Origin: a bacterium
GTDB taxonomy: Bacteria > BMS3Abin14
Direction of reading: 5' to 3'
DNA: 29,582 bases
Assembly (NCBI GenBank): GCA_029210545.1
Contig: JARGFV010000024.1
Span: forward strand, 1 to 29,582
Shown: one piece after another, positions 350-17,993 of the stretch
How positions within the stretch are numbered: position 1 is the first letter of the stretch
How the letters are laid out: the number at the start of each line of letters is the position of its first letter
Notes under the pieces: model-generated
What the model saw: only the letters and a program-made list of their open reading frames with translations
Databases searched by the model: none
What the model was told of the DNA's origin: nothing
Position numbers and translations under genes: made by a program

Positions 350-1879
350 ATGCTGACCCGCCACCTGGCCGTCAGGGTCAACCTCATCATCGCCATGATC
401 CTGGCCATCGCGCTGGGCACCACGGCCATGCTGACCAAGCGCAACTGGCAGCAGCAGGCCATCGAGGAGGCCATGACCAAGGCCACCATCATGTCGGCGA
501 CGATCATGAACTCCATCATCGTGGAGATGAGCGGGTTCTGCCAGAAGGATGTCCAGAAGATTGTCGCCAACGTGGGCGCCGTTCCGGAGATCGACACCGT
601 CCGGGTCTTCGACGAGGACGGGATCATCACCTACTCGGCCGATCCGGAGGAGGTGGGCCTTGCCGTCGATTCCCTCGACTTTTCCGTTTACCAGAGCAAG
701 GAGAGGACCCGCCCCTTCAAGTCGGAAGAGAGCGGTCACCGGTCGTTCTGTATGGTCCAGCCCATCGAAAACGCCCTCGAGTGCCGGCGCTGCCACGGTC
801 ACGAAAGGGAGATCCTGGGCGTCCTGGACGTCTGCGTGTCCATGGCCCCGACGGAAAAGAGGATCGCCGCCAACAGCCGGTTCCTTTTCGCCACCACCTT
901 CACGACCGTCATTCTTGTCGTCATCGCCATCAGCATCAGCATGTGGATCCTGGTCAACATGCCGGTAAACCGGCTGGTGCGGACCATGGCCAAGGCGGAA
1001 AAGGGCAACCTCAAGGCCCGGGCCGAGATCCGGCGGCAGGACGAGCTCGGACGGCTGGCGCAGAGCCTGAACTCCATGCTTGAGCAGCTCGACCACTCAG
1101 AGCAGGAACTCAAGAGGTTCCATGCCGAGCAGCTGAAAAGAGCGGACAGGCTGGCCACCCTCGGGGAGCTTGCCGCCGGCATCGCCCACGAGATCAAGAA
1201 CCCCCTGGCCGGTATTGCCGGCGCCACCCAGATACTGGCCAGGGAATTTTCCGATGATGACCCGAGGCAGCCGGTGACCCAGGAGATCCTCAAGCTCATC
1301 GAGCGCCTCGACTCGACCATCCGGGGACTCCTGGACTTTGCCCGGCCGTCGGTTCCCCAGATCGTCCCCACTGATCTGGGCCAGGTCATGGAAAGGACCT
1401 TGTTCCTGGTGGAGCAGATGCCCGAGATAAAGGGGCAGGGCGTCGCCATCGACCTTGAGATCGACCCGGAGATGCCGACAGTTCCGGTGGACCCTGATCT
1501 GATCCGCCAGGTGTTCCTCAACATGGCGGTGAACGCGATCCAGGCCATGCGGCAGGGTGGAACCTTGACCGTCACGGTGCGGACGGCTCCGGAGGAAGAT
1601 CTCGGGGAGGTCCATCCCGCGGCCGATTACGTCATGATCTCCTTCACCGACACGGGCTCCGGCATCGAGGAGGACAAGCTGCGCAGCATCTTCACCCCCT
1701 TCTTTACCACCAAGACCCAGGGCACCGGCCTCGGGCTGCCCATTACCATGCGCATCGTAGAGCAGCACGACGGGCGCATCACCGTCAGCAGCAAGGTGGG
1801 CGAGGGGACCACTTTCAGGATCTATTTGCGAAAAGAGCTGGTTCAACCTCAAAACACAGAGGATGCTGAGGAAGGCTGA
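350..1879 (+). CDS. sensor histidine kinase with periplasmic c-type heme motif
   Basis: This 509-residue membrane sensor kinase should autophosphorylate and pass phosphate to a response regulator, most likely the NtrC-type protein encoded at 3081. The first membrane segment is about residues 9-28. A periplasmic domain follows (about 30-175) with C145-R-R-C148-H149, a CXXCH site for covalent heme c, in the context PIENALECRRCHG. The second membrane segment is about 178-204, then HAMP to about 255. The HisKA H-box has H280 in AHEIKNPLAG. The HATPase has N-box N391/N395, G1 DTGSGIEE (434-441), F-box FTPFF (448-452) and G2 GTGLGLP (458-464). The layout resembles DUF3365/Tll0287-like sensors. The ATG at 350 is chosen because AGAGAG precedes it and it gives a full first membrane segment. 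The ligand (redox state, NO, CO or O2) cannot be read from the sequence. Confidence 0.92.
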   Translation: MLTRHLAVRVNLIIAMILAIALGTTAMLTKRNWQQQAIEEAMTKATIMSATIMNSIIVEMSGFCQKDVQKIVANVGAVPEIDTVRVFDEDGIITYSADPEEVGLAVDSLDFSVYQSKERTRPFKSEESGHRSFCMVQPIENALECRRCHGHEREILGVLDVCVSMAPTEKRIAANSRFLFATTFTTVILVVIAISISMWILVNMPVNRLVRTMAKAEKGNLKARAEIRRQDELGRLAQSLNSMLEQLDHSEQELKRFHAEQLKRADRLATLGELAAGIAHEIKNPLAGIAGATQILAREFSDDDPRQPVTQEILKLIERLDSTIRGLLDFARPSVPQIVPTDLGQVMERTLFLVEQMPEIKGQGVAIDLEIDPEMPTVPVDPDLIRQVFLNMAVNAIQAMRQGGTLTVTVRTAPEEDLGEVHPAADYVMISFTDTGSGIEEDKLRSIFTPFFTTKTQGTGLGLPITMRIVEQHDGRITVSSKVGEGTTFRIYLRKELVQPQNTEDAEEG

Positions 1880-1933
1880 ATCTGGAGTAAGGCTTGTCAT
1901 CGCGAACCCTAAAATAGTCCAGTTCCTTAATCT

Positions 1934-1956
1934 TCCTCCCCCTTGAGGGGGGAGGA
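1934..1956. repeat. CCTCCCC hairpin after the kinase gene
   Basis: TCCTCCCC (1934-1941) pairs with GGGGAGGA (1949-1956) across a 7-base loop, followed by a GGTGGGGGTG tail. It lies 55 bases after the kinase stop codon and has no T-run, so it is a weak terminator at best. Hairpins of this wording are typical dispersed repeats. The 1880-2505 gap holds this hairpin, the CACAGAG tract and the 86-bp tandem repeat, and no credible gene. Confidence 0.5.
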
Positions 1957-2001
1957 CTGAGGTGGGGGTGAAAGATACTAAACCCATGTGAAGCAATCTC
2001 G

Positions 2002-2128
2002 GGTTCCTGTAAAAGCGGCATTTTTACCACAGAGATCACAGAGAACACAGAGGAAAAGCGAAACAGGGGGGAAGGCACGGTTCCTGTAAAAGCGGCATTT
2101 TTCACCACGGAGCCACGGAGAAAGTCGG
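2002..2128. repeat. outer left arm: direct repeat plus CACAGAG tract
   Basis: A 24-base perfect direct repeat occurs at 2002-2025 and 2079-2102 (77-base period; it contains CTGTAAAAGCGGCATTTTT). Each copy runs into a tract of the ACCACAGAG/CACAGAG word: 2026-2054, and a CACGGAG variant at 2103-2120. The T-run followed by ACCACAGAG is the reverse complement of the outer right arm at 3053-3078, beyond the GxxExxY gene. Confidence 0.8.
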
Positions 2129-2210
2129 AGGAAAGCACAAATCTCTTTAGGGGGGATCCTCAGGCGTATGCCGTCAGAGCGTAAAGAGCGTTCACCACAG
2201 AGCCACAGAG

Positions 2211-2426
2211 GGCGCCGAGAAGAGCGGAGAAGGGCTGGATCAGGGGGAAAGGCTTGGGCGTACGCCGTTAAAGCGCTGAAGGCTTTCACCACAGAGGGCG
2301 CCGAGAAGAGCGGAGAAGGGCTGGATCAGGGGGAAAGGCTTGGGCGTACGCCGTTAAAGCGCTGAAGGCTTTCACCACAGAGGGCACAGAGAAGAGCGGA
2401 GAAGGGCTGGATCAGGGGGAAAGGCT
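2211..2426. repeat. 86-bp perfect tandem repeat (2.5 copies), inner left arm
   Basis: Unit 1 (2211-2296) and unit 2 (2297-2382) are identical over 86 bases. A third partial unit runs 2383-2426 with a few changes at its start (GGCGCC becomes GGCACA). A degenerate earlier half-copy is seen at 2164-2200. Each full unit ends in GCTTTCACCACAGAG (2282-2296 and 2368-2382), the exact reverse complement of 2989-3003 on the far side of the GxxExxY gene. With no spacers between units, it is not a CRISPR array. Confidence 0.9.
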
Positions 2427-2505
2427 TTTATGGCTTTGGGTGATGCCACCTGTTTACGATTTTTCCATGTGTGCGAAACAGGGGAAAAAGGCGGGACAAG
2501 CGTAA

Positions 2506-2880
2506 ATGGCCGACAATGATCCCTTGACCGGCAGGCTTATAGGCGCCGCCATTGAAGTGCACAGGGAACTGGGACCAGGCCTCCTGGAATCGGCCTATCA
2601 AGAATGCCTGTGCCATGAACTGCTTTTGCAGGGTGTGGAGTTCCAGAGACAGTTCCCTTTGCCGGTCCGTTACAAATCTGCCGAGCTGGATTGCGGTTTC
2701 CGCATGGACCTCCTTGTTGAGGATTCCCTGGTCGTTGAGATCAAGTCCGTCGAAAAACTGCTCCCGATCCATGAAGCCCAACTTCTTACATATATGAAAT
2801 TATCTGGCATAAGGACCGGTTTATTGATAAATTTCAACGTTCGCCTCCTGAAGGATGGTATAAGAAGGTTTGTTCTTTGA
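2506..2880 (+). CDS. GxxExxY family protein (PD-(D/E)XK nuclease-like)
   Basis: The 124-residue product matches the GxxExxY family. The motif ELGPGLLESAYQECL lies at about residues 22-36, following GAAIEVHR. The second half has the nuclease-like core RMDLLVEDSLVVEIKS (about 66-81, Asp then Glu-x-Lys), EAQLLTYM (about 89-96) and GLLINFN. This fits a restriction-nuclease-like fold. The family is widespread and its biological role is unknown. The start codon has no good Shine-Dalgarno sequence (GACAAGCGTAA precedes it). The gene sits alone between nested inverted CACAGAG arms and separates a kinase gene from its likely partner regulator. It therefore looks like an inserted cassette rather than part of the two-component operon. 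Confidence 0.9.
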   Translation: MADNDPLTGRLIGAAIEVHRELGPGLLESAYQECLCHELLLQGVEFQRQFPLPVRYKSAELDCGFRMDLLVEDSLVVEIKSVEKLLPIHEAQLLTYMKLSGIRTGLLINFNVRLLKDGIRRFVL

Positions 2881-2900
2881 TGTTTAGTACTTAGGGAACC

Positions 2901-2919
2901 CCCCCGGCTTTGCCGGGGG
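2901..2919 (+). terminator. GC hairpin after the GxxExxY gene
   Basis: CCCCCGGC (2901-2908) pairs with GCCGGGGG (2912-2919) over a TTT loop, 20 bases past the stop codon. There is no T-run directly after it, so it may be a weak terminator or a small palindromic repeat. Confidence 0.45.
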
Positions 2920-2970
2920 ACCCGAACTGTGTCTCAGTTTTTGCTTTTCCCCCTTTTTGTTTGAGGTTTA

Positions 2971-3078
2971 CTCTGTGCTCTCTGTGTTCTCTGTGGTGAA
3001 AGCTTTCAGTTTTTCGATGTTGTGTCTTTCCCCTTGTTTTTCGGTTGAGGTGTTCTCTGTGTCCTCTGTGGTGAAAAA
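2971..3078. repeat. inner and outer right arms (CTCTGTG tract)
   Basis: The inner arm (2971-3009) reads CTCTGTG words and then CTCTGTGGTGAAAGCTTTCAG, the inverse of the left units. The outer arm (3053-3078) reads TTCTCTGTGTCCTCTGTGG followed by TGAAAAA, the inverse of the T-run plus CACAGAG tracts at 2021-2054 and 2098-2120. The arms are therefore nested in mirror order: A-run type outside, AAAGC type inside. The outer arm ends 2 bases before the ATG of the response regulator and must supply its ribosome binding region. Confidence 0.85.
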
Positions 3079-3080
3079 AG

Positions 3081-4433
3081 ATGGCCTCTAAAGGCCGCAT
3101 CCTCGTCGTCGACGACGAATACCTCATCCGCTGGTCCCTCCAGCAGAACCTCGTCGAGCACGGTTACGAGATCGTCCTGGCCGCCTCGGCCGAGGAGGGC
3201 CTCGCCCTCATGGACCGCGAGGAGCCGGACCTCGTCCTGTTGGACATCCAGCTCCCCGGAATGAGCGGCCTGGACCTTTTAAAGAGCATCAAGGAGCAGC
3301 GGCCCGATTGCGCCGTGGTCATGGTCACAGCGACCTCGGATCTTTCGGTCGCCGTCACTGCCATGAGGGACGGGGCCTTCGATTACATCCCCAAGCCGTT
3401 CAACCTGGACGAAGTGCGCATGGTGGTGGACAAGTCGCTGGAAAACCGGCGGCTTCGGGACGAGGTGAGCCGCTACCGGGAGCAGGAAGGTTCCCGGTAC
3501 AGTTTTTCCAGTTTTATCTACGCCAGCGGGGCCATGGAACAGGTCGTGGATGTGGCCAGGAAGATCGTCCTGTCCGACGCCACCACCGTGCTGCTGACGG
3601 GGGAAAGCGGCACCGGCAAGGACCTCCTGGCCCAGGTGATCCATTTCGAAAGCGGCCGCAGGGATATGCCGTTCATGCCCTTGAACTGCACCGCCCTTCC
3701 CAGGGAACTGCTGGAAAGCGAGCTGTTCGGCCACGAAAAGGGGGCCTTCACCGACGCCAGGACGCTGAAGAAAGGCCTTTTCGAGATCACCGACGGCGGG
3801 ACCCTGTTTCTCGACGAGATCGGCGACATGGACCTGGCCCTGCAGGCCAAGCTGCTGAGGTTTTTGGAGACGCGGACCTTCAAGCGGGTCGGCGGCACCA
3901 GGGACATCTCGGTGGACGTGCGGATCATTGCGGCCACCAACAGGGACCTCGAAGAGCGGATCAGGGAAAAGGCGTTCCGGGAGGACCTTTTCTACCGGCT
4001 CAACGTCATCCCCATAAGGGTGCCCCCTCTCAGGGAACGTCCCGAGGACGTGATCCCCCTGGCCGAGAAGTTCCTTGAGGACTTCAGCCGGGACCTGGGC
4101 AAGAAGATCAAGCGCATCGAGCCCGTGGCCGTGAGGGTCATGGAGGAGTATGGCTGGCCCGGCAACGTGCGGGAGCTTAAGAACGTCATCGAAAGGGCCA
4201 TGATCCTCTCCGCCGACGAGGTGCTCGACGCCGGGGCCCTGGCCCTGAGGAGCAGGGAGGCTGTGCAGGCCCGGCCGGGTGGTACCGACACCCTGAACCT
4301 GGATGAGATGGAACGCCGCCTCATCGAGGAGGCCCTTTCCCGCTCCAGGAACAACCAGTCCAGGGCCGCCCGGCTGTTGGGAATCTCCCGGGACACGCTG
4401 CGGTACAGGATGAAGAAGCACGAGCTTCTGTGA
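3081..4433 (+). CDS. sigma-54-dependent response regulator (NtrC/AtoC type)
   Basis: This 450-residue activator has three parts. The receiver domain (about 5-120) has acidic pair D11/D12, phosphoacceptor D55 in LVLLDIQLPG, and K105. The AAA+ sigma-54 interaction domain (about 145-375) has Walker A GESGTGK (174-180), the sigma-54 contact loop GAFTDA (221-226), Walker B TLFLDEIGDM (241-250) and the arginine-rich region to PPLRERPED. The Fis-type DNA-binding helix-turn-helix is at about 405-448 (NNQSRAARLLGISRDTLRYRMKK). When phosphorylated it should remodel RNA polymerase-sigma-54 for open-complex formation. The contact loop has Asp where most relatives have Gly. The likely partner kinase is at 350. 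A likely target is the sigma-54 promoter 820 bases downstream. Start: first ATG, directly after the repeat arm. Confidence 0.95.
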   Translation: MASKGRILVVDDEYLIRWSLQQNLVEHGYEIVLAASAEEGLALMDREEPDLVLLDIQLPGMSGLDLLKSIKEQRPDCAVVMVTATSDLSVAVTAMRDGAFDYIPKPFNLDEVRMVVDKSLENRRLRDEVSRYREQEGSRYSFSSFIYASGAMEQVVDVARKIVLSDATTVLLTGESGTGKDLLAQVIHFESGRRDMPFMPLNCTALPRELLESELFGHEKGAFTDARTLKKGLFEITDGGTLFLDEIGDMDLALQAKLLRFLETRTFKRVGGTRDISVDVRIIAATNRDLEERIREKAFREDLFYRLNVIPIRVPPLRERPEDVIPLAEKFLEDFSRDLGKKIKRIEPVAVRVMEEYGWPGNVRELKNVIERAMILSADEVLDAGALALRSREAVQARPGGTDTLNLDEMERRLIEEALSRSRNNQSRAARLLGISRDTLRYRMKKHELL

Positions 4434-4450
4434 CCTGGCGTATTGTCGCG

Positions 4451-4484
4451 GTATGGAGGTAAGGGAGTAGGGGAGTAAGGGGGT
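4451..4484. repeat. left inverted arm of the four-helix-bundle cassette
   Basis: This GGAGTA-word tract begins 18 bases after the regulator stop codon. Its segment 4463-4483 is a perfect 21-base reverse complement of 5072-5092, on the other side of the four-helix-bundle gene. The remaining GTATGGAGGTAAGGGAG matches the inverse of CTCCC/ACCTCCATAC words in the right tract. Confidence 0.88.
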
Positions 4485-4612
4485 AAATTCTGTATAGAAG
4501 GAGCAACGTAACCATTTGATCATATAGATCATTTCCTGAAGAGAGTAAACCAATTACCGGCAATAAAGAGTTCGTCAAAGATTATGAAGATCTGCGGGTT
4601 TTTCAAGGTGCG

Positions 4613-4951
4613 ATGGATACGGCTATGCAGATCTTCAAAATTACGAAGTCCTTTCCGGTGGAGGAAAGGTACTCTCTTGTCGATCAGATCAGGCGCTCTT
4701 CGCGTTCTGTGTGCGCCAATATCGCGGAAGCATGGAGGAAAAGAAGGTACAAGAGAGCATTTGTGTCCAAGTTGAGTGATGCTGAGGCTGAGGCCGGTGA
4801 GACGCAGGTGTGGCTGAAATTCGCGGAGAAGTGCGGTTATCTGGGTGAAGAGACCTTAACTGAGTTGGACACGGCATACCGGGTGATCATTGCGCAGATT
4901 ATCAGCATGATAGACAACGCGGGCAAATGGACATTCAAGGACAAGGGATGA
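4613..4951 (+). CDS. four-helix bundle protein (23S rRNA IVS / S23 family)
   Basis: The 112 residues from the first in-frame ATG match the S23-type four-helix bundle family: ITKSFPVEERYSLVDQIRRS, then SVCANIAEAWRKRR, then a C-terminal helix pair. Relatives include proteins encoded in 23S rRNA intervening sequences, and no enzymatic role is established. The conserved first-helix motif continues upstream of this ATG in the same frame: codons 4577-4612 read KDYEDLRVFQGA. The frame is open back to a TGA at 4517-4519, yet contains no ATG, GTG or TTG. The gene thus either starts at a non-standard codon or has lost its original start. It lies between inverted word-repeat arms, which resembles the stem-flanked layout of rRNA intervening sequences. 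Functional status is uncertain. Confidence 0.85.
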   Translation: MDTAMQIFKITKSFPVEERYSLVDQIRRSSRSVCANIAEAWRKRRYKRAFVSKLSDAEAEAGETQVWLKFAEKCGYLGEETLTELDTAYRVIIAQIISMIDNAGKWTFKDKG

Positions 4952-4982
4952 GGAATGGATCTGAGACCTCTGAATGGATTTA

Positions 4983-5097
4983 TTGGGTTTTACCTCCATA
5001 CCCCCATACCTCCATACTCTCAATCCGCCCACTCCCTTACTCCCATACCTCCATACCTCCATACTCTCACTCCCCCTTACTCCCCTACTCCCATACC
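4983..5097. repeat. right inverted arm of the four-helix-bundle cassette
   Basis: This tract is built from CCATACCTCCATAC, CTCCCTTACTCCCATAC and similar words, ending CTACTCCCATACC at 5097. Positions 5072-5092 are the perfect inverse of 4463-4483. Short open frames crossing it are low-complexity and not credible genes. Confidence 0.88.
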
Positions 5098-5252
5098 GGT
5101 GCATTGGGGCAAATACCGCAGGGTATGGGTGTATTCTCCCATAATTCAGAGCCGAATCGACGCAGGGTGAGGGCGGTATGGACCAGTGCCTTTAACTGTT
5201 TGAAATCAAAGAGGAAAAGCCGTACCCATATCCGCCATAATTGACATGAAAG

Positions 5253-5268
5253 TGGAACGAAACTTGCG
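5253..5268 (+). promoter_or_regulatory. sigma-54 promoter for the cytochrome module
   Basis: TGGAACGAAACTTGCG matches the sigma-54 consensus TGGCACGN4TTGCA at all fixed positions except C4 (A here) and the last base (G here). The GG (5254-5255) and GC (5266-5267) have the exact -24/-12 spacing. Transcription would start near 5279, giving a very short leader that still includes the AAGGAGG ribosome site (5282-5288). The word CCATAATT occurs twice upstream (5139-5146 and 5235-5242), and the inverted repeat TATGGG-N8-CCCATA lies at 5124-5143. These are weak candidates for activator sites. Confidence 0.8.
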
Positions 5269-5293
5269 TAACCATTAGAAGAAGGAGGTTTCA

Positions 5294-6973
5294 ATGAGAC
5301 GTACGACAGGTATGAGAACAGGTAAAAACAAGACACTTGCTTTATTGTTCATGGCGCTGGCCGTTGCCTTCGCCGCGGCGGCGCCGCAGGTGGCGTCTGC
5401 GGCTCTGACGGCCCCCAACTGGCTGCCGGGCCAGCCCATGCTGGCGGGCAACCAGATCATCGCCATGTGGCTCCCTGTCCCTGGTGGCGTCAAGTACATC
5501 GTGTATATGGACGGACAGAAGGTGGCGGAGTCTCCTGCCAACCAGTACATGGGGCTCGCGCCCGAGGCCGCTGGTGAGCATGTCTACGAAGTAACGGCGG
5601 TGGATGCTTCCGGAGCTGAAAGCCCCAGGAGTGCGCGCGGTGTCATCAAGATCGTCACCCTTGAGCCGCCTACGGGAGTTATGCTCCGTCCAAACGCCCA
5701 GGACAAGCGCATCGGTGTCCGGTGGACCCCATCTCCAGGTTCGGTGATCTCCAACGTCTACCGCTCCGAGAGTGCCGAGGGCCCCTGGACCCTCCTCTCC
5801 TCGGTGCAGGGGACCGACAACTTCAAGGACGCCGACATAGAGTTCGGCAAGGATTACTGGTACGCGGTCACCGGCAAGGATATCACCGGCAAGGAAACAG
5901 CACGGTCTGCCGCGGAAAAGACCATGTTGAAGGAACCCGAAAAGGCGGCGGAAGTCATCAAGATCGACATGGTGGCGGTACCCTCCGCCGAGGTCGAACA
6001 GGTAAGATTCTTAGGCCGGAACTCTACCACGGATGCCTGGGGCCTGGCTGTAGGCAGTGAGGGCGACCTGTGGTTGGCGACCGGCGAGAAGGGGACGATT
6101 GTACACCTGTCACCCCCTCCGGAATTCGAGGTGCTCACAACAATTCCCCTGAGCAGGTTTAACGCAGAGCACAACCTTAAGCTCAAGAACGCGGACAGGA
6201 TCAACATCTACGAGGACGAGAACCTCATCCTTTTGGTGGACGCCTTCTCCAGCACCCTCCTGGCCCTTGACCTGGACGGCCAGTTCAGGTGGGCCTTCAA
6301 GCCGACTCTCCCCCCCGACGACCGGGATGATATCTGGTCCCTCCTTCAACAGAGGATAAAAAAGGTACGCCTCATACCCAATGCGGCTTTCGTTAGCTCC
6401 TCGGGTCTGGTTCTCGTGAGTGAGAACCGGGCTCCTATCTTCTACGAGGTGGACCTTGAAACGGGAGAACTCCTTGATTGGCGGGGAGGGTATGTCCGGG
6501 ACGGAGAGCACATGGATACGATTGGCGCCGGGATCATGATGGAGATCGAACCGGGCCTCGCCTGGGCCGGCGAACCCCTGGTCCACCGTATTGTTGCCTT
6601 CGACCCGGAAACCATGGATGTCAAATATGTTATAGGCGAAGAGGGGACCCATGACGGCTTTATCGGCGGATTCCTGGGGGTAAGTGATTTCCTGAAGAAC
6701 CCGGTCGATGGCAGCATCCTCGTGGCCGACTCGGGAGTGGGCTCCATCCAGGCCTTCGATCCCAAGAAGGGCAAGTACCTGTATCACATCGGCGGCACAC
6801 CCCTGGCGCCGGATCCGGAACTGGGGGGAGAGCGGCCCAAGCTGGATGTCGGCGCAATCAGCCGAATCTTTTTCACCCCTGACGGCCGCCTGTGGGCCAA
6901 GCACGGTTTCGAGAAGTACTTCTCCGTACGCACCGTCCAGTGGGACAAAAAGACAACCTTTAAGAAGGACTAG
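5294..6973 (+). CDS. exported FnIII / NHL-type beta-propeller protein
   Basis: This 559-residue secreted protein opens with a signal peptide (basic MRRTTGMRTGKNK, hydrophobic core about 14-30, cleavage near APQVASA/ALTA at 36-37). Two fibronectin-III-like modules follow, at about 38-120 (ending YEVTAVDASGAESPRSARG) and 122-215 (YWYAVTGKDITGKETARSAA). From about 230 to 545 there are repeated beta-propeller strands of NHL type, such as WGLAVGSEGDLWLATGEKG, DGSILVADSGVGSIQAFD and RIFFTPDGRLWAKHGF. It has no CXXCH motif. Such proteins often neighbour multiheme cytochromes and probably act as a binding or scaffold partner; that role is inference. The start is fixed by AAGGAGG five bases upstream. 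It is the first gene after the sigma-54 promoter. Confidence 0.85.
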   Translation: MRRTTGMRTGKNKTLALLFMALAVAFAAAAPQVASAALTAPNWLPGQPMLAGNQIIAMWLPVPGGVKYIVYMDGQKVAESPANQYMGLAPEAAGEHVYEVTAVDASGAESPRSARGVIKIVTLEPPTGVMLRPNAQDKRIGVRWTPSPGSVISNVYRSESAEGPWTLLSSVQGTDNFKDADIEFGKDYWYAVTGKDITGKETARSAAEKTMLKEPEKAAEVIKIDMVAVPSAEVEQVRFLGRNSTTDAWGLAVGSEGDLWLATGEKGTIVHLSPPPEFEVLTTIPLSRFNAEHNLKLKNADRINIYEDENLILLVDAFSSTLLALDLDGQFRWAFKPTLPPDDRDDIWSLLQQRIKKVRLIPNAAFVSSSGLVLVSENRAPIFYEVDLETGELLDWRGGYVRDGEHMDTIGAGIMMEIEPGLAWAGEPLVHRIVAFDPETMDVKYVIGEEGTHDGFIGGFLGVSDFLKNPVDGSILVADSGVGSIQAFDPKKGKYLYHIGGTPLAPDPELGGERPKLDVGAISRIFFTPDGRLWAKHGFEKYFSVRTVQWDKKTTFKKD

Positions 6974-7183
6974 GGCTAAGGAGCGACAGAAAAGTTCATG
7001 GCGGCCTTACCTAAGGCTTGAAAATAATGACGCAATATCCATGGTTGGCCAGGACCCCGGGTCCGGGTTCGGGCGCGAAAAGGAGGTGAAAAGAAACGGA
7101 AAAGGGCCTGCGATACCGGATATGAGAGCGTGGGAGCTTTCATAACTAAGATTTAAGACGGATTTCATTCAAAAAGGAGAATT

Positions 7184-9508
7184 ATGATGAGAAAGATTCT
7201 TGTGATCCTTGCCGCAGCGGCTTTGCTGGCAATCCCAATGGCCGCCTCTGCTGGCGTCGCCCTCACTTCCCACGACATGTCACTGGCGTACTCAGGTATC
7301 GTGAAGGCGGGTGTCTGTTCCCCGTGCCACCTGCCCCACGGCACCCAGGGTGATCGCCTCTTCCCCGACCCGGGCGCGGCTGCCGGCGGTGGCATCGTCG
7401 GTAACCTGTGCGCTGCCTGCCATTTCTCCGGCGGCGCGTATGCCGGCGTGACCATCCCGGCCCAGTCGGACGATTACGTCTACGGCACCTATAGCCACGG
7501 TGATGTGGCCCAGATGACCTACGACCAGTACCCCGACAACACCGCCAACGGTTTTCTGACCTCCTCGGCGCTGCCCTACGTGTCCGATGCTGCGCCGAGC
7601 ATGGAGTGCACCTCCTGCCACAACGTGCACAACGACGCCAACCGGCCGTTCCTGAGGACCGACCTGGACGCGATGTGCGGCGCGTGCCACCCCAACAGGC
7701 ACTATGACGCCACCACCGGCTTCACTACCCAGCTGGCGACCATTGCCACCTGGGGCCCTGCCAACACGAGGCTTGCTAACCCCGGTTCCCACCCCGTGGG
7801 CACCGACGTTGATGCTCTCCTCAACGACGCTTCCCAGACCATTGCGATCAGCGCCGACTTCCAGGTCGGCCTGTCGGCCGTTGTTGACGGCTGGAACCTA
7901 GGTGGTCACCTCTCTGGCGGAGCCACCGGCGGCGTCGTGTGCGTTACCTGCCACGCTGTCCACGGTGCCCAGGGCGACGCGGACGATAACCTCCTTTTCG
8001 GGACCGCCACGGCGCACACACCTTATTCCAACTTCCTGAACATCGACCAGAGCTCCACCGCCCTCGCCTATGTTGCACCCACGGGCCTCTCCCGTTCCGT
8101 AGCTTCCGGTTTCGGCGTGGACAACGCCTTCTGCGAGGCGTGCCACAACGGAACTGAGTCTGTTGACTACACCGTCGTTGGTGGCGCGGTCGACCCCGGC
8201 GCAACTGGCTATACCCACCCCCTGGACGGCATCACGCCCTCCAACAACGGGTGGGTCACCGTCTTCCCGGCCAACTGGCCCCAGGGTGACGCCACAACCT
8301 TCGCCACAGGCATGACCCCCGTGGCCATCTGCGAGTCGTGCCACGTCATGCACCCCACCGCCAACGCGGTAGCCACTGTAGTTGAAAGGCCCGACGTGGT
8401 CCAGGGCGCGGTCGATTACGCCTTCATCCTGAGGGACAGCTCCAACGCGATCTGCAACAACTGCCACACGGGTTCCATCGCCGGGCACCATCCGGCCAAC
8501 GTGACCTTCAACCCCGTAGGCGTGCCCTACCTTGAGAACGTTGCCGCCAACCTGCTGACCTGCCGCACATGCCACAGCTCCTCCGGCGCCCACAACTGGG
8601 CCAGCGCCGACGGCATCGGCCTCGACCCTGACTGGCTCCCAGTCAACAACGGCAGGGACGCTGTTCCGGCTACCGACGCTGCTAACGCCCAGATGGGCCA
8701 GACCTGCTTTGACTGCCACTTCAACTTCGACGACGCGCCCCACTGGTCGCCGGTTCTCGACGGCGCTGCTGCATTCCTGACCACCATCGTCAACACGGAT
8801 TCCCCGGGGTACACGAAGCTCGGAGACGGCACGCACTTCATGGGGCACGTCGGCGCGGGTGAAGACCTTACAGCAACCGGCCTGAACCCGCAGTTGGCGA
8901 ACGTCTACACGGCCGGTACCGCCTGGACTGGTGTCGACGGCGCCAACGCCACCGCCGCTGGCTGGTCCCGGTTCCGGCCTGCCGTTGCTGATGGCATCGG
9001 CATCGTGTGCGAGTCGTGCCACGAGCTCGAGCCTGACAAGAACAACTTCGGCGCCGCCACCCCCGGCAACCACCTGCTGCTCGCCACATTCACCGACGGC
9101 AACAACGGCAACGAGGCCGCTGAGGTAGTCGATGGGCGCGACGACTTCTGCCAGGCTTGCCACATGCCGGTGGGTACACACCCCATGACCGGCGATACCG
9201 TTGGCCGGACGAACGGGATCCTCGACATCGTCGTCACCAAGGCCTGGCTCGAGGATATCGATACTACCAGGGCTACTCTTGAAGACGTCACCTGGGCTGT
9301 TGCCACCGACTCCATGTCCTGCGACAGTTGCCACCAGGTTCACGATGCAGAGACCGATTCTGCCAACATGATCCTCGAGGCTCAGGATGCTAATATCCCG
9401 GTTACGGCCGGTGCGATTACCGGTGCCAACGACTTCGTGCCCAACTTCCCCGATGCGAACAAGGGCCCCAACCACGAGGCCTTCTGCCAGTACTGCCACC
9501 TGTACTAA
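7184..9508 (+). CDS. 14-heme c-type cytochrome (doubled CXXCH type)
   Basis: This 774-residue exported cytochrome has a signal peptide MMRKILVILAAAALLAIPMAASA followed by GVALTSHD. Fourteen CXXCH sites are present, in order: CSPCH, CAACH, CTSCH, CGACH, CVTCH, CEACH, CESCH, CNNCH, CRTCH, CFDCH, CESCH, CQACH, CDSCH and CQYCH. The first is at residues 44-48 and the last at 768-772, only two residues from the C-terminus. About 21 histidines lie outside the CXXCH sites, enough for bis-His ligation of every heme. Heme density is about one per 55 residues. It should carry electrons in the periplasm, outer membrane or outside the cell. Whether it is a nanowire-type or docking cytochrome cannot be told from sequence alone. 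AAAAAGGAG precedes the ATG. It lies 210 bases after the propeller gene, with no terminator seen between. Confidence 0.95.
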   Translation: MMRKILVILAAAALLAIPMAASAGVALTSHDMSLAYSGIVKAGVCSPCHLPHGTQGDRLFPDPGAAAGGGIVGNLCAACHFSGGAYAGVTIPAQSDDYVYGTYSHGDVAQMTYDQYPDNTANGFLTSSALPYVSDAAPSMECTSCHNVHNDANRPFLRTDLDAMCGACHPNRHYDATTGFTTQLATIATWGPANTRLANPGSHPVGTDVDALLNDASQTIAISADFQVGLSAVVDGWNLGGHLSGGATGGVVCVTCHAVHGAQGDADDNLLFGTATAHTPYSNFLNIDQSSTALAYVAPTGLSRSVASGFGVDNAFCEACHNGTESVDYTVVGGAVDPGATGYTHPLDGITPSNNGWVTVFPANWPQGDATTFATGMTPVAICESCHVMHPTANAVATVVERPDVVQGAVDYAFILRDSSNAICNNCHTGSIAGHHPANVTFNPVGVPYLENVAANLLTCRTCHSSSGAHNWASADGIGLDPDWLPVNNGRDAVPATDAANAQMGQTCFDCHFNFDDAPHWSPVLDGAAAFLTTIVNTDSPGYTKLGDGTHFMGHVGAGEDLTATGLNPQLANVYTAGTAWTGVDGANATAAGWSRFRPAVADGIGIVCESCHELEPDKNNFGAATPGNHLLLATFTDGNNGNEAAEVVDGRDDFCQACHMPVGTHPMTGDTVGRTNGILDIVVTKAWLEDIDTTRATLEDVTWAVATDSMSCDSCHQVHDAETDSANMILEAQDANIPVTAGAITGANDFVPNFPDANKGPNHEAFCQYCHLY

Positions 9509-9549
9509 GAGACAGGCTTTGTGAAACAGTAGTATCCTATGGTTGAAAC

Positions 9550-9613
9550 GCGGGGGCTCGGAGCATGGCGCTCCGGGCCCCCGCATCCCCTGTAATCCCT
9601 GGGGGGTTTTTTT
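9550..9613 (+). terminator. intrinsic terminator after the cytochrome gene
   Basis: A 15-bp stem (9550-9564 with 9570-9584, one G-T pair, 5-base loop) is followed by a CCCC/GGGG element and a run of seven T at 9607-9613. It may reduce read-through from the abundant cytochrome transcript into the redoxin gene. Confidence 0.7.
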
Positions 9614-9662
9614 GACCGAAGAAGGTTTATCAATGCGGTTTTTCCCGAGGAAAGGGGTAAAA

Positions 9663-10199
9663 ATGAGGAGATTTCCGGTAATCATCGCTGTGGCCCTGGT
9701 GGCCCTCATGCTGGCTGCCCCCGTTTTCGCGGCTGACGAATCGGCCGCCGTCGAGGCAGGCCCACTCAAGGTCGGGGATGTTCTCCCGGACGGCCTTTTA
9801 GCTGCCACCCTCGACGGCGCACCCACTGACCTGAAAAAGAACATTTCAGACAAACCATTCACATTCTTCCAGTTCATGACCACCGCATGCAGTGCGTGCC
9901 AGGGCGAGATGGGGGCGTTTATTGGCCTCCAGCTCGATATGCCCGGCAAGTTCGACGTGGTGGCCATCTCCATGGATATGATGGGAGCCGACGCGGTCAA
10001 CGCCTACGAGTCCAAGTTCAAGTACGGGGTCAAATACCTCCTGGACCCCGATTTCAAGCTGCCCCCGCGCTTTAACTTCCCCTACACGCCCTCCTTTTTC
10101 ATCGTCAATCAGGAAGGCAAGATCGTCTATATGAAGGGCGGGTTCATGTCCAGCCGCTGGGCCAAGGACAGGGACGCGGTTGTCGAGGTGATCCAGTAG
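9663..10199 (+). CDS. exported redoxin / TlpA-like thioredoxin-fold protein
   Basis: This 178-residue protein starts with signal peptide MRRFPVIIAVALVALMLAAPVFA then ADES. The mature part has the redoxin opening PLKVGDVLPDGLLAATLDG (about 35-53) and an active site C76-S-A-C79 in TTACSACQGEMG. A YTPSFFIVN segment supplies the cis-Pro, then come GKIVYMKGG and a C-terminal helix. It should work in the periplasm as a thiol-disulfide reductant or oxidant. Placed after a 14-heme cytochrome, a role in keeping CXXCH cysteines reduced for heme attachment is plausible but inferred. An in-frame ATG at 9633 (AGAAGG upstream) is an alternative start. A start upstream of 9613 would lie inside the terminator hairpin and is unlikely. 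Confidence 0.85.
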   Translation: MRRFPVIIAVALVALMLAAPVFAADESAAVEAGPLKVGDVLPDGLLAATLDGAPTDLKKNISDKPFTFFQFMTTACSACQGEMGAFIGLQLDMPGKFDVVAISMDMMGADAVNAYESKFKYGVKYLLDPDFKLPPRFNFPYTPSFFIVNQEGKIVYMKGGFMSSRWAKDRDAVVEVIQ

Positions 10200-10228
10200 T
10201 GGTATAAAAGCATCGCCTTGCCATTGAC

Positions 10229-10268
10229 GGGGAGCAGTGGTGGAGTTCGCGCCGCTGCCCCCCTTTTT
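10229..10268 (+). terminator. intrinsic terminator after the redoxin gene
   Basis: GGGGAGCAGTGG (10229-10240) pairs with CCGCTGCCCCCC (10252-10263), with one mismatch and one G-T pair, followed directly by TTTTT (10264-10268). It lies 30 bases after the redoxin stop and before the parvulin-like gene, so that gene depends on read-through or its own promoter. Confidence 0.7.
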
Positions 10269-10310
10269 ATTGTGATCACGTTAAGTACCATTACGGAGGT
10301 CGACAAAACC

Positions 10311-12098
10311 ATGAAATACAGTAAGGGACTGCTGCTTTTTGGGACTGTCATGTTGCTGTTCACTTTCCAGTGGGGGTGTCTCGAAAAGCCTGCTGGCCCA
10401 ACCGCTTCTGAGAAGGAAGGGGTTGTTGTAGGCGCCCTGGACAGGTATCGGGAAGGCGGATGGGAAAACCTTTCGGACCCATACGCCCAGGGGCAGGTGG
10501 TGGCATGGCTAGATTCCACCCCGGTGACCCTTGAGGAACTCGAGCGGTTCAGCGTCAGGGTGATGGGAGGCCAGGTTGAGGGCAGTGCACATGGCGGAGG
10601 AAGCGGAGTCGACCCTGTTTACGACGCCCTGCCGTCCTTTCACCGTTACTATGCCGCAATCAAGGAGGCTGAAAAGGAAGGCCTCCACAAGGAGCGCTTT
10701 TTCAGACAGAGGTTCGACCTGACTGTCCGTACCGCCCTGGCCGGCACCTTCACTCGATGGTTCACTGCTAATGCGGAAGTGGACCCCGATTCTCTGGCCG
10801 CCCGGATACCGAAGCGGTGGGTACAGATGAATTTTGCAGTGAAACTGCTGCCTGAGGATGGAACCGCGGAGGACATCCTGGCTCGTGTTTCGAACCGTGA
10901 GGAGTTTCTCGCCCTGGATACCGGTATGGCGCCCAGCAGCCGTGAACTGCCTCAGACCGGCCTGGTGTTTCCCGGTTCCGGGTTCTTCGAGGGGTGGGAC
11001 GACGCCGAGCTCTTCAACCTCGCTGAGGGCGATGTCTACGGGCCCATAAGGACCGGCATCGGCAGCGCCATCGTCCTGGTGCTGGAGCGGCAGGACATGG
11101 ATGAAAAAGCTCAGGCAGACTACATGGATGGTATCAGGGAACAACTTTCGCAGCAATGGATGGCCGACAGGATGCAGAGGTACATTGAAAGCCTGAATAT
11201 GGAGATCAGGGAGGATGCCCTCGAGAAAGCAGTTTTCGAGGAGTTCACCGGCGGGATGCTCCTGGACGAAACGGTCGCAATGGTGGGTGATGACGAGATC
11301 TCTTACCGGCTTTTCCGACTCATTAACGGCAAGAGCTACGCTACGTACAGGACCAACTACCCGATGAGTTCCTGGCCAAATGTCGTGAGATCGGATCTGG
11401 GGGCAACCCTCCGGCAGGTCGCCGTTGGGCGCATGGCACAGGAATATTACAAGGACGGACGATGGCCGGGGGATGTTCCGGAGTACGTCCTGCAACTGTT
11501 TTACGATTACAGGAAAACATTCCTTTATCACAGCTTCCTGGACCTGGTGGAGCGGGAGTCCCAGTTTGAACTGACGGACGAAGAACTCCTCGCCTACTAT
11601 CAGCAGAATCCCGGTTTCTTTACCGTTCCGGGCAGCGTTGAAATCGCTTACAAAATGGCCGTAGACGAGGAAACACCGGCTGTCTGGAGGAAGATCCTCG
11701 CCGCCGGCGGTTCCTTCAGCCAAGCGGCCAACGCCACCGCAGGTCCTAAAAGCCCACATGGGAGCACAGGGGAGTTCAAGCAGGTGACAGTCTACCAGGG
11801 GGACACATTTTTCAAGGAGATGCAGGAGGATCTCTTTGCCATGGAGAAGGGGAAGACCGCCATCATTGACGGCGAGATGGGCACCTACCTTGTTAACGTG
11901 GCAGACAAGTCAGAAGGCCGCATGCAAAGTTTCGGGGAGAGCAGGGAAGAGGTGCGCGTGCGCGTCGTCCGCCAGCGTTTCAGGAACATCGTCGATGCCA
12001 GGGTCACAGGACTGGCATCCCACGTGAAGGTGAGAGTGGCCGAGGAGTTTCTTCCGGCAAAGCCGATGGAGGACGTTCCCCACCCGGACCTGGGTTGA
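10311..12098 (+). CDS. parvulin/SurA-like peptidyl-prolyl isomerase, putative lipoprotein
   Basis: This 595-residue exported protein has an N-terminal hydrophobic stretch MKYSKGLLLFGTVMLLFTFQ ending at Cys23 (QWGC-LEKP). That is a weak lipobox, so lipid attachment is likely but not certain. A SurA-N-like segment (VVAWLDSTPVTLEELERF) comes first. A parvulin-like module spans about 165-270 (VQMNFAVKLL to GIGSAIVLVLERQDM). A second chaperone-like unit starts at VAMVGDDEISYRLF (about 320), and a second, more divergent parvulin-like module spans about 420-540. It probably assists folding of exported proteins such as the neighbouring cytochrome; that link is inferred. GGAGGT 10 bases upstream supports the ATG at 10311 over an earlier in-frame ATG at 10218, which lies before the terminator hairpin. 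Confidence 0.78.
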   Translation: MKYSKGLLLFGTVMLLFTFQWGCLEKPAGPTASEKEGVVVGALDRYREGGWENLSDPYAQGQVVAWLDSTPVTLEELERFSVRVMGGQVEGSAHGGGSGVDPVYDALPSFHRYYAAIKEAEKEGLHKERFFRQRFDLTVRTALAGTFTRWFTANAEVDPDSLAARIPKRWVQMNFAVKLLPEDGTAEDILARVSNREEFLALDTGMAPSSRELPQTGLVFPGSGFFEGWDDAELFNLAEGDVYGPIRTGIGSAIVLVLERQDMDEKAQADYMDGIREQLSQQWMADRMQRYIESLNMEIREDALEKAVFEEFTGGMLLDETVAMVGDDEISYRLFRLINGKSYATYRTNYPMSSWPNVVRSDLGATLRQVAVGRMAQEYYKDGRWPGDVPEYVLQLFYDYRKTFLYHSFLDLVERESQFELTDEELLAYYQQNPGFFTVPGSVEIAYKMAVDEETPAVWRKILAAGGSFSQAANATAGPKSPHGSTGEFKQVTVYQGDTFFKEMQEDLFAMEKGKTAIIDGEMGTYLVNVADKSEGRMQSFGESREEVRVRVVRQRFRNIVDARVTGLASHVKVRVAEEFLPAKPMEDVPHPDLG

Positions 12099-12120
12099 CG
12101 CTTCGTCTAACCCAGATTAT

Positions 12121-12156
12121 AAAGAAAGAGGCGGCCTCACGGCCGCCTCTTTCTTT
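12121..12156. terminator. bidirectional hairpin terminator closing the cytochrome module
   Basis: AAAGAAAGAGGCGGCC (12121-12136) pairs perfectly with 12141-12156 over a TCAC loop, giving a 16-bp stem with A-rich and T-rich ends. It lies 22 bases after the parvulin-like gene. It would also stop leftward transcription arriving from 12555. Confidence 0.88.
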
Positions 12157-12420
12157 GGCGTAACGGTTTCGATCCCGCCTCGCAGCCGTATCCGATTTGC
12201 CCTGCGCAACCCCGTGGTCACACTGCTTATGAATTAACTGCACCGCGGCCGTCTGAAGGCGGGAACACGGGGTTACGCGGGGTAACAGCTCCGTATTCCC
12301 TGCGTCCTCCTTCGTACTCCGCGGTCATATTGCTCTTGATCCAAAAGTATTTTGGCTTTTGGCTCTCCCCTGCGCTCCCCATGCGCCTGCCTGCCGTCCT
12401 GTCCATCGACCTGTCCACGG

Positions 12421-12490
12421 TAGCCTTGGCGAAGGTGGAAGCTCGGAAGGTGTGGTCGGAAGCCTTTGGCGAAGGCTGGGTCTCTGCGGT
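12421..12490. repeat. dispersed 'TTGGCGAAGG' repeat
   Basis: TAGCCTTGGCGAAG at 12421-12434 recurs inverted near 14923-14937. CGGAAGCCTTTGGCGAAGGC and the following bases (12457-12487) match 15118-15147 with a few changes. The stretch 12157-12554 contains this repeat and scattered GC-rich low-complexity sequence. I see no credible gene in it. Confidence 0.7.
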
Positions 12491-12554
12491 AACACTTCTC
12501 TTGATTAAACCATGGCGCGTTGAGATGTACGGATAGGCGAGGGGCGCGCGACGG

Positions 12555-14507
12555 TCAATTCCCCTGGGGCCCGCCGAGCTGTTTCTGCAAGGCCTGCATC
12601 TTTGAGGACGCCAGAGATATGTACCTCCTGTCCCCGAGCCAGAATCGCAGAAACTTCTCATAGTTGGCGATGGCCACGGCCGGCTGGCCCAGGTTCTCAT
12701 AGGCCAGGGCGATGTTGTAGTAGGACATGGCGAATGTCGGGTCGATGAACAGGGCCTGCTTGTAGTATTGGATCGCTTCCGGGTATTTGCGCTCCTTGAA
12801 GTAGATATTGGCCAGGTTGTTGGCCGCCTCGATGTAGCGGGGGTTGTACTTCAGGGCTGTCTTATAAGCCCCGATCGCTTCCTCGGTTTTGCCCGCCTCC
12901 CTGAGGATGTTACCCAGGTTGTAGTTGGCCAGGGCTGACTTCGGGTCCAGCTGGATGGCCCGCTTCATCCACTTTTCCGCGTTCTCGTACCCCTTCTTCT
13001 TGTGGTAGACGTTGCCAACGTTGATGTAGGGGTTCGGGAACATGGGGGCCAGCTTGATGGTGCGCTGGTAGTGCTGCAGCGCCCGGTCGAAATCCCCGTT
13101 CTGCTCGTAGTAGATCCCCAGGTTGTTGTACCCCCGCACCGAGTTGCGGTCCTTTAAGATAACATCCTTCCAGATCGTTTCCTCTGTGGCAAAGGCCATG
13201 TTGCGCTTGAACGTCCCGAGGCCCATGAAGAGGAGGATGGTCAAACATATGGTGATAAAGGTTTTGAAATACCATCCTCCGTCTGACCGGAACCGGAGAT
13301 AAAGCTTGGCCACAACGTAGGTGAAAACCAGGACGAACCCGAACCCGGGAAGGTAAAGGCGGTGGTCGTTGATCACCACGTTCAGGCGAAACAGGGATGT
13401 AGGAAGCAGGGCCAGAAAGAACCAGAGAACGCCGAAGGTGATTAGGGGATGCTTTTTCCAGTACCTGAGAGCGGCAGCGACAATGAGAGTGATGACCAGG
13501 CACGACAGCAGCACCTTGCCATCGGAAAAGCTCCTGGTCACCTGGAACGGCTTGTCGATGGAAAGGCCGGTGGGAAGGAACCACTCCCGAATGTAGAAAA
13601 CAACTGCCCTGGACTGGGTCGCAAGCTGGCTGACCCAATCGGCGGCCGCCTGCGTTCCGCCCTTTTCGGTGAACCTACTGGCCAGGTTCTCGCCGTAGAT
13701 CTGAAGCCTTGTGTACAAGATGCCCACCAGGACGACTCCGTACGGAGCCAGCCGTATGGTAAGGTTTGTCATGATTGCAGGGAGGCTACGGCCTTCCATC
13801 CACCTCCTGTTAAGGAATATCTCGTAAAGGAAGATCATCCCCGGAAGGGTCACTGCTATCTCCTTGGAAAGGAATCCGCAAAGATACATGAAGGTGGATA
13901 AGGCCAACGGAAGGAAGCGGATGGAGGTAGTCTCCTGGTCCTGCGTCGCCTTGAGGTAGAAGTAGAACCCGGCCAGCAGGAACATGGTGGCCATGCCGGA
14001 GGAGCGGGAGGAGATGTAGACGATGGTTTCTGTGTTTATGGTCTGCAGCCCGAACAGGAGTCCGGCGAAGGCCGCAGGCAGGGCAGGGTCCATCCCGTCG
14101 AGGCGGATCCGGCGGCGGAACAGAAAGAGGGTGATGAAAAATACGAGCAGGGAGCTTACAAGGTGGAACAGGAAGTTCACCACGTGGTAGCCGACGACGT
14201 CATATCCGTCCCGGTTTGTCCATATCCCGACCTGGTAGTTGATGGCGTGGGTGGCCATGAGGAGCGGGCGGTACATGCGCGTCTGGGGGTTCCGGCTGAA
14301 GGTGGTGGCGTCGGTGAAGAACATCGGGATATTGGAGATCTTCCGGATGTTGATGTTCTCCTTGATGTGGTGGAAGTCGTCGTAGTGCCAGTCCGCGGTA
14401 AAGCTGTTGGAGTAGAATATGGTCAGGGCCGCCGTGATAAGGAGAACGGCGAAAAGCGTCGGCCTGGCTTCGTAAACGGTGCGGAGCTTTTGAAGGATGC
14501 TGTTCAT
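12555..14507 (-). CDS. multi-pass GT-C-like membrane protein with C-terminal TPRs
   Basis: This 650-residue protein has an N-terminal membrane domain and a TPR tail. After a first membrane segment (about 17-33) comes WHYDDFHHI with the Asp pair D43/D44, placed where GT-C glycosyltransferases carry the catalytic acidic residue in their first extracytoplasmic loop. About ten more hydrophobic segments follow to residue 425. From about 448 to 630 there are roughly five TPR units (YNNLGIYYEQNGDFDRALQHYQ, NPYINVGNVYHKK, ANYNLGNILREAGK, AANNLANIYF, SYYNIALAYENLG). The design matches the TMTC/PMT-like membrane proteins thought to glycosylate exported proteins. Substrate and activity are unknown. It is monocistronic as far as can be seen, separated from the operon upstream by 618 repeat-rich bases. 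Confidence 0.85.
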   Translation of the reverse strand: MNSILQKLRTVYEARPTLFAVLLITAALTIFYSNSFTADWHYDDFHHIKENINIRKISNIPMFFTDATTFSRNPQTRMYRPLLMATHAINYQVGIWTNRDGYDVVGYHVVNFLFHLVSSLLVFFITLFLFRRRIRLDGMDPALPAAFAGLLFGLQTINTETIVYISSRSSGMATMFLLAGFYFYLKATQDQETTSIRFLPLALSTFMYLCGFLSKEIAVTLPGMIFLYEIFLNRRWMEGRSLPAIMTNLTIRLAPYGVVLVGILYTRLQIYGENLASRFTEKGGTQAAADWVSQLATQSRAVVFYIREWFLPTGLSIDKPFQVTRSFSDGKVLLSCLVITLIVAAALRYWKKHPLITFGVLWFFLALLPTSLFRLNVVINDHRLYLPGFGFVLVFTYVVAKLYLRFRSDGGWYFKTFITICLTILLFMGLGTFKRNMAFATEETIWKDVILKDRNSVRGYNNLGIYYEQNGDFDRALQHYQRTIKLAPMFPNPYINVGNVYHKKKGYENAEKWMKRAIQLDPKSALANYNLGNILREAGKTEEAIGAYKTALKYNPRYIEAANNLANIYFKERKYPEAIQYYKQALFIDPTFAMSYYNIALAYENLGQPAVAIANYEKFLRFWLGDRRYISLASSKMQALQKQLGGPQGN

Positions 14508-14578
14508 AATCTGAGTATGGCCTCTCTCGGTTTTGAGGATATCAGGATCGCTGGGATCCTTTCAGCATTAATGGTTAA

Positions 14579-14730
14579 CGTTGATGGACTCGCAAAAAGT
14601 CCATCAACGCACCCCGCGCGGGGTGCCCAAATCAATGACTCCCACTGTAAGTCATTGATTTGTAAGGAAAGGGAAAAAGACGCTTTTCCCTTTCCTTGGA
14701 GCGAAAAGTCCCGGATTGGACTTTTTGCGA
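14579..14730. repeat. compound element of five abutting hairpins
   Basis: Five stem-loops follow with almost no spacing. H1: 14579-14590/14598-14609, 12 bp perfect. H2: 14609-14626, an 18-base perfect palindrome (GCACCCCGCGCGGGGTGC). H3: 14629-14640/14650-14661, 12 bp perfect. H4: 14664-14677/14684-14697, 14 bp perfect. H5: 14701-14711/14718-14728, 11 bp with one G-T. The outer segments can instead pair with each other: TCGCAAAAAGTCC (14590-14602) with GGACTTTTTGCGA (14718-14730), closing a cloverleaf over H2-H4. The element lies just upstream of the GT-C/TPR gene. It is probably a dispersed structured repeat; function is unknown. Confidence 0.88.
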
Positions 14731-14868
14731 CTCTATCAGCGTTGGCCGTTGAAGGTTGCCAGCCACTAACTTTATACCTTAACCGTTAAGGTTATCAACC
14801 GGTTAAAATTGAGCTGTCAGCAAAAAGGTCCTTCTCCCGACGCTGTCATCCCGGATACTCATATGGCT

Positions 14869-14975
14869 GTCACTCCGGGCTTGACCCGGAGTCCATGGAT
14901 TCCGGATAATCCCGCCTTCCGTCTTCGCCAAGGCTATGCCGTGACAAGCAAGCGGTGATTTCCGGAATGACGGTA
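14869..14975. repeat. REP-like dispersed repeat, copy 2 (inverted)
   Basis: A hairpin ACTCCGGG-CTTGA-CCCGGAGT (14872-14892) is followed by TGGATTCCGGATAATCCCGC (14896-14915), and GATTTCCGGAATGACGG lies at 14957-14973. Both segments are reverse complements of 221-240 and 194-210. The middle (14916-14956) holds a CTTCGCCAAGGCTATGCC block shared with the repeats at 12421 and 15083. Confidence 0.8.
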
Positions 14976-14985
14976 ATCATGGGTT

Positions 14986-15076
14986 TTACCTCGTTACCTC
15001 GATACAACTCTTCATCCCCCATGCACCCACGCCCCCAGGCTCTCCCGTTCCTTCCCCGTGTCACCGTGTCTCCGTG
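14986..15076. repeat. low-complexity word tract (TTACCTCG, CCGTGTC)
   Basis: TTACCTCGTTACCTCGATAC (14986-15005) and CCGTGTCACCGTGTCTCCGTG words (15056-15076) show the repeated-word build of the tracts around the GxxExxY and four-helix-bundle genes. No gene lies between these two parts. Confidence 0.55.
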
Positions 15077-15082
15077 CTTGCC

Positions 15083-15147
15083 ACGCCGACTTGTCACGTC
15101 GGAGCCTATGGCGCAGACGGAAGCTTTAGCGAAGGCGGGTCCCTGCG
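15083..15147. repeat. dispersed repeat running into the DUF354 gene end
   Basis: The hairpin CCGAC-TTGTCAC-GTCGG (about 15086-15102) is followed by GCGCAGACGGAAGCTTTAGC and GAAGGCGGGTCCCTGCG. This is related to 12457-12487 directly and to 14911-14955 as an inverted copy. It contains the leftward stop codon (15126-15128) and the last six or so codons of the DUF354 gene. Confidence 0.7.
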
Positions 15148-16172: not shown

Positions 16173-16178
16173 TTTTCG

Positions 16179-17985: not shown

Positions 17986-17993
17986 CTTCTTCC

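Follow-up and report, generated by a model that had tools for sequence, protein, structure and literature searches.

A predicted heme-sensor kinase and NtrC-type regulator beside a conserved sigma-54 promoter and a 14-heme cytochrome cassette in an uncultured bacterium

What decides when an uncultured bacterium makes one of its large multiheme cytochromes, and might the signal be read by a sensor that itself carries heme? The question is raised by the start of contig JARGFV010000024.1 in a 2.7 Mb draft genome (GCA_029210545.1; GTDB lineage BMS3Abin14), of which 29,582 nucleotides, here called the window, were analysed; the searched set for this phylum comprised 12 species, all of one family. 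A sequence-only reading had proposed that a heme-sensing kinase, an NtrC-type regulator and a sigma-54 promoter are wired to a module built around a 14-heme cytochrome, and every element that it named was found in place. All lie on the plus strand: a sensor histidine kinase with a CRRCH motif (350–1879), the NtrC-type response regulator (3081–4433), the promoter (5253–5268), and a cassette encoding an exported beta-propeller protein (5294–6973), the cytochrome (7184–9508), a redoxin (9663–10199) and a parvulin-type prolyl isomerase (10311–12098). We consider it fairly likely that kinase and regulator drive this cassette through the sigma-54 promoter and two enhancer dyads upstream of it, a wiring that is backed by synteny among relatives, by conservation of the promoter and by the tandem enhancer.

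The predicted promoter, TGGAACGAAACTTGCG (TGGAACG-AAAC-TTGCG), lies 820 bases past the regulator gene and 41 bases before the ATG at 5294, and its predicted transcription start at 5279 would leave a 15-base leader that still includes the ribosome-binding site. It has GG at -24 and GC at -12 at the correct spacing, and each of the 12 genomes of the phylum has rpoN, the gene for sigma-54. The pattern TGGAACGN4TTGCG occurs once in the whole 2.7 Mb genome, and the window contains a single perfect match to TGGNACN5TTGC; taken from this single sequence alone, the evidence for a promoter is nonetheless weak, because a looser pattern with one mismatch allowed is not enriched in the window (4 matches against 6.9 expected), nor in the genomes. 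What settles the prediction is conservation, as TGG[AT]A[CT]G[AG]AACTTGCGTAA precedes the propeller start in six loci from five genomes: the window, contig C105 of the same draft genome (which carries a second cassette) and the relatives G002, G003, G004 and G009. The position that had been proposed for an exact -24/-12 promoter is thereby borne out.

When the six loci are anchored on their -24 elements, two 16-base dyads of the form TGNG-N8-CNCA appear upstream of the promoter in all six; in the window these are TGGGGCAAATACCGCA (5105–5120) and, 21 bp from it, TGGGTGTATTCTCCCA (5126–5141), both on the plus strand. Four loci (the window, C105, G003 and G002) have dyad starts at -148 and -127, counted from the -24 element; G004 has them at -149 and -127 and G009 at -147 and -125. 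No further TGNG-N8-CNCA occurs in the 450 upstream bases of each locus (187 for C105). Not one of 5000 shuffled sets contained even a single dyad common to one position, and with one locus kept per lineage (four loci, distinct lineages) none of 3000 shuffles did. Pairwise identity runs at 28–30% between -105 and -60, which is about chance, at 42–44% over the dyads and at 89% over the promoter. On its own, the dyad pattern shows no excess in the window (7 matches, 9.4 expected) and is informative only as one of a pair at a fixed place; the composite pattern of loose promoter plus both dyads is found in exactly six places across the 12 genomes, all of them before propeller genes, and its reversed control gives no match. 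An NtrC-type activator would be expected to bind in such an arrangement, with two dyads two helical turns apart and some 110 bp ahead of a sigma-54 element, and we read the pair as a predicted activator enhancer. Between enhancer and promoter, an A-rich element (about TGAAATCAAAGAGGAAA, plus strand, 5201–5217 in the anchored alignment) is conserved in position and may be a bending site. It fits the consensus of integration host factor (IHF) poorly, and an IHF site in this interval was rejected, the A-rich element alone being conserved.

Which protein would bind this enhancer? The neighbouring regulator consists of a receiver domain (D55), a sigma-54 AAA+ domain and a Fis-type helix-turn-helix (HTH), with Pfam scores far over the cut-offs; its orthologues are 74–77% identical, share the sigma-54 contact loop GAFTDA (4/4) and are nearly identical in the HTH and recognition helix region. 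Another NtrC-type activator could in principle serve the promoter and enhancer while the adjacent kinase–regulator pair controls something else: the same genome encodes seven or more further proteins whose ends carry a similar HTH, and the regulator gene stands 820 bp away from the promoter, with a small unrelated gene in between. Yet in all five genomes that have the site (the draft genome itself through the window, G003, G004, G009 and G002) the regulator gene is the next gene upstream of the enhancer, save that a small gene of the intervening-sequence (IVS) type stands between them in the window and G003. The regulator's HTH is moreover conserved along with the site and has no other close copy in its own genome, the next best being about 50% identical and the rest no closer, and we regard a foreign activator as very unlikely.

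The prediction that the regulatory pair sits beside the cytochrome module in relatives, whose failure would have refuted the earlier reading, also held. In G004 the kinase, regulator, propeller, 14-heme cytochrome, redoxin and prolyl isomerase genes follow in the same order, succeeded by a convergent gene for a tetratricopeptide repeat (TPR) membrane protein. The order is kept in part elsewhere: G009 retains kinase, regulator, propeller and cytochrome up to the contig end, and G003 retains the regulator through the prolyl isomerase, with the kinase near the end of another contig and 85% identical in its sensor half. Upstream of the kinase, 13- and 5-heme cytochromes are encoded in G004, G009 and SZUA-204, redoxin-TPR proteins in G004 and SZUA-204, and ResB- and CcsA-type cytochrome maturation proteins in G009. 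SZUA-204, a metagenome-assembled genome whose contig ends within the kinase, was the sole true relative from a scan of genome contigs with the sensor profile; three Alloyangia matches in that scan were set aside, having aligned by the C-terminal part alone (residues 154–247, mainly the HAMP region).

If the wiring is as proposed, the next question is what the kinase senses. It is predicted to comprise a first membrane helix, a periplasmic Cache-type domain, a second membrane helix and the Pfam domains HAMP, HisKA (H280) and HATPase_c, with a single CRRCH motif (C145-R-R-C148-H149) located between the two helices. Orthologues are 68–85% identical over residues 1–253, and all have CRRCH or CHRCH. 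The predicted fold is Cache-like, with WalK, CitA and GSU0935 (3b42) among the fold-search matches, and in the model the CRRCH lies in a helix (143–149) inserted between the strands 131–140 and 155–164, the latter being the last. A profile built from 14 sensor homologues matches GSU0935 (3b42, E 3.1e-6), and in this alignment the histidine of the CXXCH motif (His149) corresponds to His144 of GSU0935 and Met60 of the kinase to its Met60, a residue that is invariant across the 14 homologues. The earlier term 'cytochrome-like sensor' does not describe the domain well, which is a Cache fold with a predicted heme-binding insertion and not a cytochrome. A sensor without heme can be imagined, its CRRCH serving as a structural element or as a zinc or disulphide site and its Cache domain sensing a small organic ligand as other Cache domains do, and the best-superposed structural matches are indeed the Cache domains of WalK and CitA, which bind ligands; the invariance of the CXXCH motif and Met60 among orthologues, the profile match to a solved c-heme sensor and the ResB and CcsA genes in the same cluster in G009 nevertheless make it highly improbable. 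The predicted periplasmic sensor, then, probably carries heme.

As to the signal, Met60 of GSU0935 is thought to ligate the iron of reduced heme and to come off on oxidation (PMC8396549), and the sensor's relatedness to GSU0935, down to the ligand pair Met60/His144, supports the redox-type heme sensing that had been proposed. The same wiring could, however, respond to nitric oxide (NO) as a gas instead of to redox state: a 2026 preprint describes tight NO binding by a member of the c-heme Cache family that takes part in signalling (PMC12889525), and GSU0582 and GSU0935 bind both NO and carbon monoxide (PMC8396549). Set against this, Met60, which is invariant, is in GSU0935 the ligand that switches with redox state; in the NO binder of the preprint, by contrast, the axial Cys is missing and its place probably taken by water. 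Moreover, no gene related to NO or nitrogen oxides was recognised in the scanned parts of the locus, and the sampled neighbours are cytochrome and cytochrome maturation genes. We consider NO sensing unlikely but still a serious rival, and favour redox sensing by a bound heme.

Related sensors in the phylum have one CXXCH and a second motif, C-X4-CH, aligned with CRRCH. They include kinases (L061, L062, L064, L065, L068–L071 and L073) and sensors of about 300 residues (L063, L066, L072, L074 and L075), and their motifs suggest that these sensors carry two hemes and use an unusual heme motif.

We hypothesize that the circuit operates as follows. One heme c would be covalently bound in the periplasmic Cache domain of the kinase, where kinase activity would be altered by a change in heme redox state, with a switch of the His149/Met60 ligands like that of GSU0935, or possibly by a diatomic ligand. 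The kinase would phosphorylate the neighbouring NtrC-type regulator, whose Fis-type HTH would bind the two TGNG-N8-CNCA dyads 21 bp apart, and whose AAA+ ring would contact RNA polymerase–sigma-54 at the -24/-12 element some 110 bp downstream. This would switch on the operon for the propeller protein, the 14-heme cytochrome, the CxxC redoxin and the parvulin lipoprotein, and, in trans, the copy on C105.

Several observations weigh against this scheme. The sensor model is of moderate confidence (predicted local distance difference test score, pLDDT, 70), and the Pfam family of GSU0935-type sensors, PF21563, scores 23.3 bits, under its cut-off of 27; for this reason, and because the Pfam scan gave no match of PF11845 to the sensor, we file the domain as a relative of the c-heme Cache family that probably works in the same way, and not as a member. 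The GAFTDA loop of the regulator deviates from GAFTGA; it is counted among the tolerated variants in PMC4641369. In G002 the regulator is partly masked and no kinase was found nearby, while G007 has the kinase (its contig ends within the gene) and yet only another type of cassette was found there. Finally, the six loci that speak for the dyad motif are also those from which it was read off, and for this reason the shuffle test was made to span 27 dyad geometries and all half-site letters.

How far would the circuit reach? It had been described as self-contained, a description that does not stand, as the second cassette of the same genome, on C105, bears the same enhancer and promoter as the window; a circuit confined to one cassette was accordingly rejected. 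Because C105 carries this enhancer and the regulator's HTH has no other close copy in the genome, the circuit probably also serves the C105 cassette in trans. The cassette occurs more widely without an adjacent kinase and regulator, both in the same draft genome (contigs C105 and C114, each cut by a contig end, and C3) and in the distant genomes G296 and G320, so that the regulatory arm looks like the lineage-specific part. A second type of propeller/14-heme cassette was found on C3 and in G009, G003 and G007, and here a gene for a sigma factor of the extracytoplasmic function (ECF) type lies directly downstream of the cytochrome gene in four of four cases (L033:4109–4759, L039 at about 5700–6370, L040:13149–13739 and L118:6052–6681), three of them recognised by Pfam and the one in G009 from reading its translation. 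No sigma-54 element precedes the propeller gene of this type in the three genomes checked, and it appears to be a paralogous cassette with different wiring.

The products of the cassette suggest what such a circuit would control. The first is an exported protein with Fn3-like domains and an NHL beta-propeller (Pfam NHL at cut-off; profile matches to the Fn3 structure 3mpc and to the NHL propellers of TRIM2/3/71). The cytochrome, of 774 residues, has 14 CXXCH motifs, as do its full-length orthologues and paralogues. Its profile matches OmcE in an N-terminal tetraheme region (7tfs, 8.3e-17), another cytochrome, 9yuq (1.4e-17), and the C-terminus of OmcS (2e-7), and these three rank ahead of other multiheme structures; the AlphaFold model (pLDDT 29) is unusable. 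The protein is homologous to OmcE, and its 14 hemes set it apart from a tetraheme OmcE-type subunit; it is probably an OmcE-related surface or extracellular electron carrier. The name 'conduit', given to it earlier, is unsupported, because no porin or outer-membrane barrel was found among the Pfam-scanned window genes from 350 to 16172 or the sampled genes of relatives, and the nearest solved relative, OmcE, is a filament subunit. The exported thioredoxin-like protein (Pfam Redoxin/AhpC-TSA; start codon picked by its signal peptide) has a CxxC invariant in six copies and probably helps to reduce the cysteines of heme sites or to keep them reduced. The prolyl isomerase (Pfam Rotamase_2) is a probable lipoprotein, with a lipobox-like Cys in the copies compared and parvulin domains in relatives, and probably helps to fold the exported cytochrome. 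We raise, only tentatively, the possibility of a feedback loop, in which the sensor, through tandem enhancers and sigma-54, would have as its regulon the cytochrome cassette that itself determines the redox state being sensed, with the paralogous cassette in the same cells paired to an ECF sigma factor; if this were true, the redox poise of the envelope would control synthesis of an OmcE-like cytochrome.

Other genes of the window lie between and beyond these parts, among them two small, unrelated ones in the gaps that the sequence-only reading had not named. A GxxExxY (PD-(D/E)XK-like) gene at 2506–2880, between kinase and regulator, is absent from G004 and G009. The IVS-type gene between regulator and enhancer (4613–4951) encodes a four-helix protein of the 23S-IVS kind; its counterpart in G003 (L036:10660–11184) is 88% identical, and it too is absent from G004 and G009. 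Low-complexity CCATACCTCC repeats follow it at about 4990–5095. Beyond the cassette, a polysaccharide-type cluster (12555–29582), mostly on the minus strand as judged from the sequences, includes glycosyltransferase, radical S-adenosylmethionine, asparagine synthase, sugar epimerase and nucleotidyltransferase-like genes, and the TPR membrane gene at 12555–14507 adjoins the cassette in G003 and G004 as well. No tRNA genes or Rfam matches were found in the window.

Sensor domains with heme c occur widely across Desulfobacterota, Nitrospirota and related phyla (PMC12889525). The literature searched names no target genes for a heme-c sensor kinase, reports no cytochrome-cassette regulon for a c-heme Cache kinase, and gave no instance of a sigma-54-controlled cytochrome operon combined with a heme-sensor kinase. 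With sensor, regulator, predicted binding site, promoter and target in one locus, the regulon of a heme-c sensor becomes directly testable. The two cassette types further suggest how uncultured bacteria might choose among cytochrome cassettes, by an enhancer and sigma-54 for one type and by an adjacent ECF sigma factor for the other.

Each part of the locus resembles something already described. The sensor shares with the chemoreceptor sensors GSU0935 and GSU0582 (3b42, 3b47; PF21563) and with sCache_heme (PMC12889525) a periplasmic Cache/PAS-like domain in which a CXXCH insertion precedes the last strand, and the Met60/His144 pair of GSU0935 corresponds to Met60/His149 here; in contrast to those chemoreceptors, to which identity is about 24% and under the Pfam cut-off, the present domain is part of a histidine kinase that is paired with an NtrC-type regulator and has a predicted operon as its target. 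The cassette is alike in kind to an operon of SEEP-SRB1 and Desulfuromonadales (Skennerton 2017, PMC5539420), although we do not file it as a member: the likeness is one of gene content (beta-propeller, large multiheme cytochrome and prolyl isomerase genes), and the present cassette has one 14-heme cytochrome in place of a 16- and 26-heme pair, an extra CxxC redoxin, and a dedicated kinase, NtrC regulator and sigma-54 promoter. The cytochrome recalls the Geobacter filaments of OmcE, which its N-terminal tetraheme region matches, and of OmcS, which its C-terminus matches, but has 14 hemes in 774 residues against their 4 or 6. Sigma-54 control of cytochromes also has precedents: the RpoN regulon of Geobacter includes cytochromes (PMC2725144), and in Desulfovibrio a sigma-54 enhancer-binding protein, DVU3142, stands beside the octaheme cytochrome operon ohcBAC that it is predicted to control (PMC4641369); the gene content differs, and the section consulted describes no heme-sensor kinase. 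The locus is real and well conserved, and it is a variant of these known kinds of system.

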